Below, in pieces: positions 648 through 34,636 of a stretch of 39,749 bases of DNA. The stretch lies in the NCBI GenBank assembly GCA_036275915.1, contig DASUCV010000016.1:1-39749 (forward strand), written 5' to 3'. The translations under genes were made by a program, and so were the position numbers. The notes below the pieces were generated by a model that worked only from the letters and a program-made list of their open reading frames with translations, made no database searches and was not told where the DNA came from. How positions within the stretch are numbered: the stretch's first letter is position 1; each line of letters starts with the position of its first letter. The DNA comes from Candidatus Polarisedimenticolaceae bacterium (GTDB lineage Bacteria; Acidobacteriota; Polarisedimenticolia; Polarisedimenticolales; DASRJG01).

Positions 648-2482
<1,835 letters not shown>

Positions 2483-3260
2483 CCTTGAACCCGAGGGTCT
2501 CCGAGCGCGTCATCGCCGCCTGCGCCTCCTGCAGCCGCCCGGACATCCAGTAGGCGACCGCGAGGTTGTTCTCCGCGAGCGGCTGCTTCGGGTCGCGCTT
2601 GAGCGCGGTCTCCCACGCGGCGATCGCCTCGTCCGTGCGCTTCAGGTCGAAGAGCGCGTTCCCCTGGAAGAAGAGGACCTCCGCGGGCGCTTCGTGAACG
2701 TTGAGCGTCGTCGGCGGGTTCATCGTCTCGAGGGACTGGATGCGCTGCTCGACGATGTTGCGCTCGCGATTGATCGCGGCCTCCTGGGACGCGGAGGTTC
2801 CCATCTCCCCGGCGGTCGCGGCTCGGCTCGCCGCCGCCTCGAGCTGCGCGAGGTTCATGCGGAGCTGTTGCAGCTCGTCCCGCGATTTCGCGTAACGCTC
2901 CGTCTCGAGCTCGACGATCGCCGAGGACATCGAGCGATAGGCGCTCTCGGCATCTCGGAACTCGCGGAGCGCGTCCTCGAAGCGGCGCTCGCGCATCGCC
3001 AGGTGCCCGAGACCGAGATGCGCCTGGGGGAAATCCGGGACCGCTTTCATCGAGGCGCCGAAGGCCTCACGTGCCTTGCCGAGATTGCCCTTCGTGAGCG
3101 CGGACATGCCGCGTTCGGACTCGGCGATCGCCCTCCGGAGGGCTCGCTCTTGCGGCTCAGAAAGGGACCAGGCGGCGGATGTCGCCACGAACAACGCGGC
3201 AGCGATGACCGGCCACCTGCGCATCGCCTCCTCCTGGTGCTTTCGAAGATACGCCGAGGT

Positions 3261-26052: not shown

Positions 26053-26141
26053 AGAAATAAGGGGACAGGTACCGATTTCTCGACTTCAGGAAATCCGTAC
26101 CTGTCCCCTTATTTCTGGAAGAAAAAGCAGAATGTCCCCAT
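26053..26141. repeat. Family A palindromic repeat, left-truncated copy
   Basis: Inner inverted repeat: 27-nt arms 26053-26079 and 26090-26116, one mismatch, 10-nt loop. The right side continues into GGAAGAAAAAGCAGAATGTCCCCAT (26117-26141), identical to the right outer arm of the 29185-29304 copy. The matching left outer arm is missing. It starts 7 nt after the stop of the YyaL-type gene and ends 27 nt before the metallopeptidase start. Confidence 0.9.
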
Positions 26142-27203: not shown

Positions 27204-28252
27204 AGAACGGGAACAAGAAGCACAAGGAGCGCCTCAGGATCCTCGTCCTCTTCGAAATCCTGGAGGCCCCCGCCCCCGACGAGGAGTACGAGCGCCGGAT
27301 GCGGGAAGAACCCGACTGGCGCACGGAGGGGCACGTCGTCGCCGCGCTCAAGGCGCTCGGCCACGAGGTCCACCTGGGCGCGATCTACAAGAACCCGCGC
27401 GACGTCATCGACATCGTCGAGCGCATCCAGCCCGACCTCGTGTGGAACTTCGTCCAGACCTTCCACGGCACGCGCTACTACGAGAGCCACATCGCCGGCG
27501 TCCTCGAGCTGTGCAAGGTCCCCTACACCGGCTGCGACCACCGCGCGCTCATGCTCTGCCAGGACAAGGCGCTCTCGAAGGAGATCCTGAAGCACCACCG
27601 CGTCCCGGTTCCCGCGTTCGTGGTGTCGCGCCGCTCGCAGCCCTTGAAGAAGCTCGGCAAGGCGATCTTCCCCGTCATGGTGAAGCCCCTCGCCGAGGAA
27701 GGCTCGGTCGGCATCTCGCGCGACTCGTTCGCCGAGACGGAAGAGCAGGCGATCGCGCGCGCGAGCTTCTTGCACGACCGCCTCAAGCAAGACGTCATCA
27801 TCGAGCAGTATGTCTCGGGGCGCGAGATCTACGTCGGCGTCCTCGGCAACGACCGCCTCAAGGTTCTCCCGCCGCGCGAGCTGAAGTTCTCGAAGGTCCC
27901 CGAGGGCGAGCCCAAGTTCGCCAGCTTCAAGGCGAAGTGGGACGAGGGCTACCGCGAGCGCTGGGGCATCCACTCCACGTTTCCCGACGATCTCTCCGAG
28001 ACGCTCCAGCGCTCGATTGCCACGGTCGCCAAGCGCGTCTTCCGCGCCCTCCAGATGCACGGCTTCGGCCGTATCGACCTGCGCGTCACCGAGGAAGGAA
28101 AGCTCGTGGTGGTGGAAGCCAACCCCAACCCTGAAATCGCCTCCGGCGAAGACCTCGCAGAAGCCGCCGCGAAGACCGGGATGCCCTACAACGAGCTGAT
28201 CGAGCGCATCGTCGCACTCGGCCTCGAGCGCTCGAACCCCAAGGGCGCCTGA
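27200..28252 (+). CDS. ATP-grasp ligase, D-alanine-D-alanine-ligase-like
   Basis: 350 aa. An N-terminal preATP-grasp domain (ILVLFEILE..., DLVWNFVQTFHG) is followed by the ATP-binding core: VMVKPLAEEGSVGIS (phosphate and lysine loop), IIEQYVSGREIYVGVLG and FGRIDLRVTEEG. The metal-binding end is VVVEANPNPEIASGED, in which E and N replace the Ddl-type E-x-N. The architecture is that of Ddl, but the Ddl serine loop and substrate signature are not seen, so the product is probably another amide or peptide bond. The start overlaps the metallopeptidase stop, and the stop overlaps the TerC start (TGATG). A dedicated peptide ligase paired with a peptidase is an inference from gene order. Confidence 0.88.
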   Translation: MKNGNKKHKERLRILVLFEILEAPAPDEEYERRMREEPDWRTEGHVVAALKALGHEVHLGAIYKNPRDVIDIVERIQPDLVWNFVQTFHGTRYYESHIAGVLELCKVPYTGCDHRALMLCQDKALSKEILKHHRVPVPAFVVSRRSQPLKKLGKAIFPVMVKPLAEEGSVGISRDSFAETEEQAIARASFLHDRLKQDVIIEQYVSGREIYVGVLGNDRLKVLPPRELKFSKVPEGEPKFASFKAKWDEGYRERWGIHSTFPDDLSETLQRSIATVAKRVFRALQMHGFGRIDLRVTEEGKLVVVEANPNPEIASGEDLAEAAAKTGMPYNELIERIVALGLERSNPKGA

Positions 28253-29187
28253 TGACCGAGCTCCTCGGCGGTCACAGCGCGATGCCCTGGATCCTCTTCA
28301 ACGTCTTCCTCGCGGTCTGCCTCGCGATCGACTTCACCTTCGCGGCCGGCAAGCACCGCGCGATCGGATTCAAGGAGGCGATCGGCTGGAACGTCTTCTG
28401 GATCGTCATCGCCCTCGCCTTCACCGGCGTCGTCATCTACGAGTACGGACGCGCCGCGGGCGCCGCGTATCTCACCGGCTACGTCGTCGAGCGCGCACTC
28501 TCGATCGACAACCTCTTCGTCTTCCTCATCATCTTCCAGTACTTCCACGTCAAGGACGACCGCCAGGCGCGCGTCCTCTTCTGGGGAATCATCGGCGCGC
28601 TCCTGATGCGCGGCGTGTTCATCCTGCTCGGCGCTGCTCTCGTCGCGAAGTTCCACTTCCTCCTCTACTTCTTCGGCGCGTTCCTCCTCTATACAGGCGT
28701 CGCGCTCATCGTGAAGAAGGACGAGAAGTCGCCGCATCCCGAGAAGAACCTCGTCGTGCGCCTGGCGTCGAAGATCATCCCGATGGACGCGCACGCCGAC
28801 GAGGACCAGTTCTTCGTGAAGCGGTCGGGGAAGTGGCACGGGACGCCGCTCTTCGTCGTCCTTCTGCTCGTCGCAACGACCGACTTCGTCTTCGCGCTCG
28901 ACTCGCTTCCCGCGATCCTCGGCATCACGCGCGACCCGTGGATCCTCTACACGTCGAACGCCTTCGCGATCCTCGGGATGCGCGTCCTCTACTTCCTGCT
29001 CGCCGCGCTCCTGCCCAAGTTCCGCTTCCTCAACTACGGCCTGTCGATCATCCTCGTCTTCATCGGGCTGCGGATGCTCCTCGAGAAGTGGGTTCATCTC
29101 GGGACGGAGCTCACGCTCGGGATCGTCGTGCTCGTGCTGGCGGGGTCGATGGTCGCGTCGATGGTGATACCGGAGCGGAAGTCCTAA
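28252..29187 (+). CDS. TerC-family integral membrane protein
   Basis: 311 aa with about nine membrane helices. Family marks are the acidic residues inside helices: LAIDFTF (D27), VERALSIDNLFVFLIIF and TTDFVFALDSLPAILGIT. A mid-protein cytoplasmic loop (KKDEKSPHPEKN...HADEDQFFVKRSGKWHG) is typical. TerC/Alx-type proteins are linked to metal-ion (Mn) export and to tellurium resistance. It is the third gene of a coupled cassette with the peptidase and ATP-grasp ligase. Its stop codon TAA begins the large palindrome at 29185. Confidence 0.92.
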   Translation: MTELLGGHSAMPWILFNVFLAVCLAIDFTFAAGKHRAIGFKEAIGWNVFWIVIALAFTGVVIYEYGRAAGAAYLTGYVVERALSIDNLFVFLIIFQYFHVKDDRQARVLFWGIIGALLMRGVFILLGAALVAKFHFLLYFFGAFLLYTGVALIVKKDEKSPHPEKNLVVRLASKIIPMDAHADEDQFFVKRSGKWHGTPLFVVLLLVATTDFVFALDSLPAILGITRDPWILYTSNAFAILGMRVLYFLLAALLPKFRFLNYGLSIILVFIGLRMLLEKWVHLGTELTLGIVVLVLAGSMVASMVIPERKS

Positions 29188-29304
29188 ATGGGGACATTCT
29201 GCTTTTTCTTCCAGAAATAAGGAGACAGGTACCGATTTCGCGACTCCAGGAAATCGGTACCTGTCTCCTTATTTCTGGAAGAAAAAGCAGAATGTCCCCA
29301 TTTA
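29185..29304. repeat. Family A palindromic repeat, full copy: perfect 55-bp inverted repeat
   Basis: Left arm 29185-29239, loop GCGACTCCAG (29240-29249), right arm 29250-29304; the arms are exact reverse complements. Inside are two motif tiers: outer (A)TGGGGACATTCTGC...TTCC and inner AGAAATAAGGAGACAGGTACCGATTTC. The inner tier repeats in the 26053 copy. The left end is the stop codon of TerC and the right end the stop codon of the convergent HD-GYP gene. It could also act as a two-way terminator. Confidence 0.95.
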
Positions 29305-30333
29305 CGAGAGCGGCACCGTGAACGGCTTCGGCTTGAGCGCCTGCGTCAGCGCGTCGACGCTCGCCGCGTCCCACTGCGCGCCGCGGCGCTCCTTCATGAG
29401 ACCGAGCGCGCCGTCGCGCGTCAGAGGCTTCCGCACCAGGGACGTCGTCATCGCGTCGAACGCTTCCGCGACCGCGAGGATCCGCGACGCGCGCGGGATG
29501 TCGTCGCCCTTCCTGCCGTAGTAGCCGCTGCCGTCGACGTACTCGTGGTGGTTGAGGATCGCATCGGCGACGGCTTCGTCGCGGTCGAGGGCGCGCAGGA
29601 TGGCGGCGCCGCGCTCGGGGTGCGTGCGGAGGAGACGGAGCTGGCCGTCGCCGAGCGGCGTCTTCTGGCGGAGCATCTCGATCGGGAGCGCGACCTTGCC
29701 GATGTCGTGGAGCATCGCGGCCCTGAGGAGCGGCATCGCCTCGCCGTCGGTGAGGTCGAGCTCGTCGGCGATCATGGCGGCGAAGTTGGTCACCCGTTCG
29801 GCGTGGCCGGGCTCGAAGCCGTCGCGGCGGTCGGCCCAGTCGGCGACGCGGGCGGCGACCTCGAGGTAGGGGCCGGCCGGCTTCGAGGGGCGCGGCACGC
29901 GGCTGCGGAGGAGCGAGCTCAGCGCTTCGCTCCAGCGCGCCTTCTTGGTCTCGGGCTCGGCCTCGTGGTGGAGGACGACGCGACGGACGCGCACCAGGGC
30001 GTCGACGCGGCCCAGGAGCTCTTCCGACGGGAAGGGGCTCGTGATGCGATCGATGAGGCGCTCCTCGACGAACGGGTCCTGCGCCTCGTCGGTGTCGCGA
30101 TGGATGAAGAGGATCGGCGGTGCCATGCCGCGACGGGTGCCGAGGGGCAGACGGAGGACCGCGTCGGTGTCGGCGACCGCCGCGACGACGACTTCCGGCG
30201 CTTCGGTGCGCTCGGCCTCGAGCAGCTTGTGGAGATCCTTGACCGTCGCGACGCGGTGGCCGTCGTGGCCGAGGATCTCGCGGATCCCTCCGGTGCGCTC
30301 CCGATCGTCCCCGACGAGCAGCAGATTCGCCAC
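29302..30333 (-). CDS. HD-GYP domain protein with degenerate receiver-like N-terminus
   Basis: 343 aa. Residues 1-120 have receiver-like length and start (LLLVGDDRERTGGIREIL), but the usual phospho-acceptor position reads VVVAAVADTD with no Asp following the beta-3 strand; phosphotransfer is doubtful. The HD-GYP domain (about 155-325) has H177, HDIGK (209-213), H262-H263-E264 with DGSGY (267-271) and D293 (AFDAMT). The eponymous GYP is GYY here. Such domains degrade cyclic di-GMP (some act on cGAMP). It is a stand-alone gene convergent with terC and separated from it only by the palindrome. Confidence 0.88.
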   Translation of the reverse strand: MANLLLVGDDRERTGGIREILGHDGHRVATVKDLHKLLEAERTEAPEVVVAAVADTDAVLRLPLGTRRGMAPPILFIHRDTDEAQDPFVEERLIDRITSPFPSEELLGRVDALVRVRRVVLHHEAEPETKKARWSEALSSLLRSRVPRPSKPAGPYLEVAARVADWADRRDGFEPGHAERVTNFAAMIADELDLTDGEAMPLLRAAMLHDIGKVALPIEMLRQKTPLGDGQLRLLRTHPERGAAILRALDRDEAVADAILNHHEYVDGSGYYGRKGDDIPRASRILAVAEAFDAMTTSLVRKPLTRDGALGLMKERRGAQWDAASVDALTQALKPKPFTVPLS

Positions 30334-31094: not shown

Positions 31095-32107
31095 GCGCCG
31101 CGCGTCAGCACGTCGTCCATGAACGACAGAGCGGCCTCGCCGGCCCAGTAGCGGGGCCGCGCGGCACGCCAGTAGCCGCAGTGCCCGCCGCCCCGCGGGT
31201 GAGCGAAGACGACGCGCCGCGCGCCGGCGCGGAACGGCTCGAACGCGCCGACGGGAACGAACGGATCGTCGTCCGAGGACAGCACGAGCGCCGGTCGTGC
31301 GACGGCGGCGAGCCGCGGCCCGGCGCTCGCCCCGGCGTAGTAATCGGCGGCCGACGCGTAGCCTGCGTCCGGGGCGGTGAAGGCGTCGTCGAACCCGCGG
31401 ACGCCGCGCGGGATCCGGCGAGGGCCGGGGACGTCGCGCACGCGCCGCAAGCGCTTCAGCTGCGTCCACAGCTTGCGGGTGAAGTAGGCGTGGTAGAGGC
31501 GGTTCGACGGCCGCTCGAGCGCCGCGATGCAGGCCGCGAGATCGACCGGGGGGTTGACGCCGACGATCGCGTCCGCGAGGCAGCTCCCGCCCGCCATGCC
31601 CGCGTACTTGAGGGCGATGTTCCCTCCCAGCGAGAAGCCGACGAGGCCGTACGGGCGGGGTAGGCCGCGACGGTCGAGCGCCGCGAGCACCGCCCCGGCG
31701 TCGTCCGACTGCCCGGCGTTGTACAGGGTCGACGCGAGCGCTTCGGTTCCCCCGCAGGTCCGGAGGTTGACGCGCGCCACGGCCCAGCCGCGGGCGAGCG
31801 CCAACGCTCCCGTCCGCCGCATGTAGCCCGACTCCGCGGAGCCGCCGAGTCCGTGGAGGAGCACGAGCGTCCCGATCGGGTGCGCCGGCTTGTGGAGGAG
31901 GACGCGCACGGCACTCCCCGGCGCCACCGGCACGTCGAGCGTCTCGGCCCTCCCGCGGATCGGGCGCGCGGGGAGGAGCGAGGGAAGGATCGTCTGGCCG
32001 TGGCGGCCGCGCAGCCAGAAGGCAGGCCGGAACTCGGGAAGAGGGGACAGCTTCCGAAACTCGGCGTTCGGAGTTTCGGAAGCTGTCCCCTCTTCGCTCC
32101 CCGTCAC
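31091..32107 (-). CDS. YheT-family alpha/beta hydrolase
   Basis: 338 aa. After a repeat-encoded N-terminus, the family sequence starts at EFRPAFWLRGRHGQTILPSL, close to the usual family start. The nucleophile elbow is GFSLGGN and the catalytic histidine lies in GGGHCGYW. The start is GTG 32107, overlapping the phosphatase stop (GTGA), since there is no other canonical start before the conserved region. Consequently residues 4-24 or so (SEEGTASETP...KLSPLPE) are encoded by the 58-nt family B palindrome at 32038-32095. This N-terminal oddity is seen directly; whether it is tolerated or the true start is elsewhere is uncertain. YheT relatives are poorly characterised esterases. Confidence 0.85.
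   Translation of the reverse strand: MTGSEEGTASETPNAEFRKLSPLPEFRPAFWLRGRHGQTILPSLLPARPIRGRAETLDVPVAPGSAVRVLLHKPAHPIGTLVLLHGLGGSAESGYMRRTGALALARGWAVARVNLRTCGGTEALASTLYNAGQSDDAGAVLAALDRRGLPRPYGLVGFSLGGNIALKYAGMAGGSCLADAIVGVNPPVDLAACIAALERPSNRLYHAYFTRKLWTQLKRLRRVRDVPGPRRIPRGVRGFDDAFTAPDAGYASAADYYAGASAGPRLAAVARPALVLSSDDDPFVPVGAFEPFRAGARRVVFAHPRGGGHCGYWRAARPRYWAGEAALSFMDDVLTRGA
32038..32095. repeat. Family B palindromic repeat, perfect copy within coding sequence
   Basis: Perfect 25-bp inverted repeat: arms 32038-32062 and 32071-32095, loop 32063-32070 (GGCGTTCG). The arm is GAAGAGGGGACAGCTTCCGAAACTC. It lies entirely within the N-terminal codons of the YheT gene and ends 9 nt before the phosphatase stop. 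Confidence 0.95.
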
Positions 32108-33810: not shown

Positions 33811-34611
33811 GTGCGTTGGTTGCGCCTTGCGTACAAGGTCCCCGGGGCCATCGCCGCCACGGCCCTCTTCGCGGTCATGACCCCGACCGTGCGCTTTCTG
33901 ACGCGCCGCGATAGCGGTGCCGTGCTCCGCGTCGGAGCCCGCGTCTGCCACGGCTGGGGCCGCTCGATGTGCGCGATTCTGAGCGTGAGGCGGGAGGTGC
34001 GGGGCACCGTCCCCGACGGCGGCGTCTACCTCGTGGCGTCGAACCACCTGTCCTACCTGGACATCTTCGTGCTCGGCTCGCTCTACCCGAGCACCTTCCT
34101 GGCGAAGCGCGAGATCGCCCGCTGGCCGTTCTTCGGCTGGGTCGCGCGCGGCGCGGGGACCCTGTTCGTCGACCGCGACCAGCCCAAGGACGTCGTCCGC
34201 GCGGGCCGCGAGATAGCGGAGCGGTTGTCGGCCGGGATTCCGATGACGATCTTCCCCGAGGGACGCAGCTCCCCCGGCAAGGACGTCCTCCCCTTCCAGC
34301 CGGCGCTGTTCGAGCCCGCCGCGCGCGCTGCCATCCCGTGCTGGGCCGTGTCGATCACCTACGAGACGCCCGGCACCGACGCGTCACCCGCGCGCACCGT
34401 CTGCTGGTACGACAGCGAGAACTTCGTCGTCCACTTCAAGCGGCTCGTCGCGCTCAGGGAGATCGTCGCGACCGTGACGTTCACCGGGCCGCCGATCATC
34501 TCGGACGATCGCAAAGTACTGGCGCGCGAGCTGTGGCAGAAGACGTCGGCGAGCTTCGAGCCTGTGAGGCAGGCGGAGGAAGAGGGCACAGCTTCCGAAA
34601 CCCTCGTCTGA
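33811..34611 (+). CDS. 1-acyl-sn-glycerol-3-phosphate acyltransferase (PlsC-like)
   Basis: 266 aa inner-membrane acyltransferase of phospholipid synthesis. The N-terminal hydrophobic segment (11-30) is followed by the acyltransferase blocks: NHLSYLD (H79, D84; the HX4D catalytic pair), GTLFVDRD, and FPEGRSS (E150, G151; phosphate binding). The C-terminus PVRQ-AEEEGTASETLV is supplied by a family B repeat and its stop lies in that repeat's loop, so the natural C-terminal tail may have been replaced. It is divergent from the phosphatase gene. Related ornithine-lipid acyltransferases share these motifs, so lipid specificity is not fixed. Confidence 0.9.
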   Translation: MRWLRLAYKVPGAIAATALFAVMTPTVRFLTRRDSGAVLRVGARVCHGWGRSMCAILSVRREVRGTVPDGGVYLVASNHLSYLDIFVLGSLYPSTFLAKREIARWPFFGWVARGAGTLFVDRDQPKDVVRAGREIAERLSAGIPMTIFPEGRSSPGKDVLPFQPALFEPAARAAIPCWAVSITYETPGTDASPARTVCWYDSENFVVHFKRLVALREIVATVTFTGPPIISDDRKVLARELWQKTSASFEPVRQAEEEGTASETLV

Positions 34612-34636
34612 GAGTTTCGGAAGCTGTCCCCTCTTC
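34579..34636. repeat. Family B palindromic repeat at a convergent gene junction
   Basis: Arms 34579-34605 and 34610-34636 are 27 nt with two mismatches and loop GTCT (34606-34609). It matches the 32038 copy over the 25-nt arm. The plsC-like stop falls in the loop and the cupin gene stop (34635-34637) at the right end. Confidence 0.92.

Follow-up and report, generated by a model that had tools for sequence, protein, structure and literature searches.

The window, a 39,749-nucleotide stretch of contig DASUCV010000016.1 from a Candidatus Polarisedimenticolaceae bacterium, carries a terC-like gene and a convergent HD-GYP gene which meet at a long palindrome (Table 1). Its two 55-nt arms are exact reverse complements separated by a 10-nt loop, giving a hairpin of 120 bases in total. 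Rechecking of the coordinates returned precisely the perfect arms and loop that an earlier, sequence-only reading had described. That reading had also assigned the outermost TAA on either side as the stop codon of the adjoining gene, and both the coordinates and the C-termini agree with this assignment. Both ends of the palindrome read TAAAT. When folded as RNA, the palindrome reached -107.2 kcal/mol (z = -18.7 relative to dinucleotide shuffles). As 0 of 200 shuffles folded as well, a chance origin of the hairpin can be excluded. In Rfam, the palindrome matched only hairpin models of microRNAs and a single Brucella sRNA; every match was below its gathering cut-off and was judged to reflect a chance hairpin.

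Table 1. Features of the terC/HD-GYP junction and related palindromes in the window.
Feature	Position	Strand	Description
terC-like gene	28252..29187	+	Protein ends ...VIPERKS; stop TAA 29185-29187 opens the palindrome
Left 55-nt arm	29185..29239	+	Outer A-type part, then inner E-type part
Outer A-type arm	29185-29212		First 28 nt of left arm, TAAATGGGGACATTCTGCTTTTTCTTCC
Inner E-type arm	29213-29239		Following 27 nt of left arm, AGAAATAAGGAGACAGGTACCGATTTC
10-nt loop	29240..29249	.	GCGACTCCAG
Right 55-nt arm	29250..29304	-	Exact reverse complement of the left arm
HD-GYP gene	29302..30333	-	Protein ends ...PFTVPLS; stop TAA 29302-29304 forms the outer end of the right arm; C-terminal shortening of 2-5 aa relative to genomes with no palindrome here
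Sibling copy, 3 kb from target	26053..26141	+	Shares the target's inner E-type hairpin and has the right outer A-type arm
C-type palindrome	32038..32095 (dimer 32043-32090)	.	Same superfamily; GGGGACAGCTTCCGAAACTC arms, 8-nt loop
Degenerate C-type palindrome	34579..34636 (dimer 34584-34631)	.	

Copies were sought throughout the genome of origin (G000; 4.53 Mb in 24 contigs, labeled C1, C4, C9, C10 etc.), which revealed further copies of the target palindrome at graded similarity within a large palindrome family with heads of the form GGGGACA[T/G].... The collected ends were classed by arm head into subtypes A (TGGGGACATTCTGCTTTTT), B (GGGGACAGCTACCGAATT), C (GGGGACAGCTTCCGAAAC), D (GGGGACAGTAACCGAGTT), and E (GGGGACAGGTACCGATTT). 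The A-type head was present at 37 sites genome-wide when up to 3 mismatches were allowed, compared to 0 in a reversed control, while the head GGGGACAGNTNCCGA had 166 matches. These palindromes match the terminal inverted repeats (TIRs; consensus GGGGWSAS) of REP-like tyrosine transposases. This TIR family is dispersed through the genome, dimers included, and many perfect palindromes with 20-37-bp arms occur elsewhere. The target itself is a composite, with an A-type arm outside and an E-type hairpin enclosed. Other composites paired A with C (C10:87495) and D with C (C4:730070 and C4:793339). At C1:48576-48688 (L049), 57-bp perfect arms combine a B-type head outside with a different hairpin, GGGTGACAGGAACCAGGTTTTTCTTACGCGCG, within. 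The target is one among several nested palindromes and is not the longest. Its sibling within the window has a missing or deleted left outer arm and one arm mismatch.

Perfect symmetry might instead have been made by an assembler at a repeat. The assembly is a draft, and contigs C9, C14, C15, and C21 end inside or beside such palindromes. Still, unique genes lie on both flanks of the target, and the convergent terC/HD-GYP order is kept in two relatives (G002 and G003). The half-copy 3 kb away shares the inner hairpin but has its own mutations, and many independent palindromes are equally symmetric. An artefact is thereby highly improbable. As contigs end at palindromes, copy numbers derived from short reads are probably underestimates.

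The C-type dimers numbered 37 in G000, each with 20-nt arms and a loop of exactly 8 nt. Their arms contained 14 mismatches in 1480 positions and were perfect in 27 of the 37 copies, a conservation which was somewhat selected for by accepting at most 3 arm mismatches in the search. The loops, with a consensus near TGCACTTC, comprised 33 types among the 37 copies, with a mean pairwise difference of 3.9 out of 8 positions (5.4 for random loops). This pattern could reflect recent spread with loop rewriting, or maintenance of the arms by conversion or selection. Arm deviations were mostly one-sided, with one symmetric case (C11:83507). Symmetric arm mutations were considered as proof of quasipalindrome correction and rejected, as most deviations are one-sided and differences between subtypes can be inherited by copying. 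The initial proposal that so long a palindrome is unstable, and must be very recent or actively corrected, was not demonstrated: long palindromes are common in this genome, and the C-type arms are conserved.

We identified two Y1_Tnp genes in G000, one on C1 and one on C10, both scoring above the cut-off for PF01797. Each protein contains the HuH motif and Tyr (HFH...Y and HVH...Y, with spacings of 58 and 57 residues). Against the NCBIfam model REP_Tyr_transpos (NF047646, cut-off 80), the C10 protein scored 82.4 bits, while the C1 protein fell below the cut-off at 67 bits. The C1 transposase (L018) is bounded by perfect 29-bp D-type TIRs, GGGGACAG. For the C10 transposase, an A-type head was located 0.1 kb upstream. 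No TIR directly follows the 3' end of this gene, the nearest downstream A-type end being 1.4 kb away on the far side of an HtrA-like gene. Within L017 (C10:46432-49779), the HtrA-like protease ORF occupies positions 2161-3198, just past the transposase gene and before the A-type end. This arrangement is at most suggestive of a passenger gene in a full-length A-type transposon. E-type TIRs were absent from both G000 transposases.

Y1_Tnp genes of other genomes from the same order are flanked by similar inverted repeats. In G007, the transposase L176 carries TIRs, GTAAATGGGGACATTCCGCTTTTT, that are virtually the A-type arm, including TAAAT. The C10 transposase shares 52% identity with L176, whose head GGGGACAT fits GGGGWSAS except at the last base. 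Transposases of relatives with GGGGWSAS TIRs included L171 (GGGGTCAG), L170, L173, L166, and L163. The target palindrome is thus one copy of a mobile family linked with tyrosine transposases of the REP type (TIRYT).

TIRYTs and TIRtrons were defined by Di Nocera et al. 2013 (PMC3733652), along with their GGGGWSAS motif and the dimers of TIRs; Acidobacteria are among the examples given. As in TIRtrons (PMC3733652; PMC6006769), Y1/HUH transposases are accompanied by TIRs sharing GGGGWSAS, and the TIRs recur across the genome singly, in dimers, and in clusters. The present genome differs in that several TIR subtypes occur as long perfect palindromes, some of them nested. Most TIRYTs belong to subclass 2.1, which typically has a C-terminal HTH (Quentin et al. 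2018, PMC6006769). Here, Pfam gave no hit to such a domain (Bac_DnaA_C, HTH_23, HTH_28) at E<=1 in either protein, so we make no claim of subclass 2.1.

Resemblance extends to the REPINs and BIMEs that RAYTs mobilize (Bertels and Rainey 2011, PMC3116915; Nunvar et al. 2010, PMC2817692). These likewise consist of two inverted units forming a long hairpin, are present in many copies alongside few transposase genes, lie mainly at ORF 3' ends (<20 bp), and have ends able to provide stop codons (PMC3733652). However, the heads here are GGGGACA, no GTAG/GGAG-tagged unit with its own small stem-loop lies in the arm, and the two units pair end to end with each other. Bacterial MITEs with TIRs are also short, non-autonomous TIR-loop-TIR elements. 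In contrast to these, the palindromes described here are linked to a Y1 tyrosine transposase rather than DDE, with no target duplication established.

REPs between convergent genes mostly lie less than 20 bp away from either ORF end, and their GTAG termini often give TAG stops (PMC3733652). With ORF-end location and stop donation already known, the fit of the target to both stop codons is an instance of this published pattern.

Comparison of the terC/HD-GYP junction in related genomes revealed two lineages without a palindrome and one with a different palindrome. In G002 and G003, the stops of the two convergent genes are TGA or TAG and lie 16 and 10 bp apart, respectively. Relative to these palindrome-free genomes, TerC of G000 is about 5-8 residues shorter at its C-terminus and HD-GYP is shorter by up to 5. 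As these relatives are only about 55-60% identical to G000 at the protein level, and no near-isogenic empty site was available, the difference in C-termini might have another origin. The G002 junction (L121) is identical to that of acidobacterial record L079. It also holds GGGGTCAGAC, the first 10 nt of the TIR of G002's own Y1 transposase (L166); this is perhaps an element remnant, and the junction may not be pristine.

The different palindrome (AAATAGGGGTCAGGCCCCTTTT... / AAATAGGGGTCAGGCCCCTTTTACTTACAAAGCACGGGCG...) was found in G001, which belongs to a different genus of the same family, and contains the stops of both genes (TAG). It spans an assembly break (end of L122 and start of L118, C108/C148), such that the join was inferred from both contig ends. 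In its head and subterminal region, this palindrome corresponds to the TIR AAAGGGGTCAGGCCCCTTTTTCTTTCA of G001's own transposase, L171. The proposal of a mobile insertion is supported by these palindrome-free junctions, together with the many genomic copies and the transposases with matching TIRs. A second, weaker case is kdpC, where the protein ends ...LALDALK with a stop from a B-type AAATAA end, compared to ...LDLDRTLDR in G001. Further junction tests were limited to one relative for kdpC, and no relative was found for the flanking protein at C9:145639.

Two accounts of the stop codons had been offered: target choice at TAAA/TTTA, or new stops supplied by the element. We classed 117 outermost ends by codon-position GC, using heuristic gene calls on a large but incomplete sample of loci. 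Among the 81 gene-facing ends, the first in-frame stop lay 1-18 nt before the GGGG head in 71, within the element in 7, and was absent from the stretch read in 3. The sequence ATAA was also present where no gene reads in, at 5/5 B-type and 2/2 E-type ends, indicating that this TAA belongs to the element. A-type end sequence is less fixed than that of B and E ends: the 31 sampled A-type ends had T at -1 in 30, A at -2 in 26, and A at -3 in 21.

Were insertion directed specifically to TAA(A) stops, both stops would be the original target. Both target ends do read TAAAT, and at many ends a TAA precedes GGGG by 3-5 nt. However, target choice at TAAA/TTTA is not supported: among the 31 sampled A-type ends, just 9 carry T at the corresponding position (-5), and some ends lack a stop altogether. 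Moreover, B and E ends carry ATAA irrespective of an incoming gene, many ends lie 6-16 nt past another, presumably original, stop, and the orthologous palindrome-free sites end in TGA or TAG. We therefore consider target choice quite unlikely. Donation of stops by the element is favored instead, as TerC and HD-GYP are both longer in palindrome-free relatives and G001 has a different palindrome holding both stops. The palindrome probably trimmed terC and HD-GYP slightly and now gives both stops.

Alternatively, the palindrome may have been selected mainly to terminate transcription in both directions or to protect mRNA 3' ends, and not be a mobile repeat. Its convergent location, its -107 kcal/mol hairpin, the family preference for ORF 3' ends, and such roles for REPs in the literature are consistent with this. 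Yet a search at the palindrome for an intrinsic terminator with a U-tract after the long stem found none. The junction also holds a different sequence in G001 and none in G002 and G003, as expected of mobile elements. A primary role of this kind is unlikely, while exaptation as a terminator or protector is compatible with a mobile origin.

Target choice, a primary terminator role, and an assembly artefact are all less likely than an element mobilized in trans. The palindrome is probably a TIR-TIR miniature element that a Y1 transposase mobilized in trans, with insertion at gene ends being tolerated since the element's own ends supply stops. It would be a non-autonomous, REPIN-like miniature in which two TIRs of a TIRYT-type Y1/HUH transposon face one another as one hairpin. 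The mobilized element would have inserted into the short terC/HD-GYP junction. In doing so it would have taken the place of a few terminal codons in each gene and given both a new in-frame stop at once. As family ends are A+T-rich and often contain TAA, both genes would have gained stops, making the insertion tolerable. The composite may have formed when the tip of an A-type hairpin was replaced by an E-type hairpin, through loop insertion or template switching. The resulting RNA hairpin at both 3' ends would be very strong, and may have the secondary effect of shielding mRNA ends or preventing read-through.

The nested subtypes, and the invariant arms with hypervariable 8-nt loops, were less expected features. 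With low confidence, we suggest that hairpin tips are rewritten while arms stay fixed, each round of mobilization, or tip opening and repair, regenerating or swapping the loop. This is based on the symmetric composites with swapped tips and the 33 loop types in near-invariant arms. Such a tip-exchange cycle of Y1-transposase hairpins was not found in the cited TIRYT/REP literature and is itself a tentative reading. If true, it would bear on the formation and upkeep of long perfect palindromes. At a single gene junction, two lineages carry different transposase-linked palindromes which give both stops, while other lineages carry none. The junction illustrates a way in which REP-like elements can be tolerated, by the capping of ORFs.
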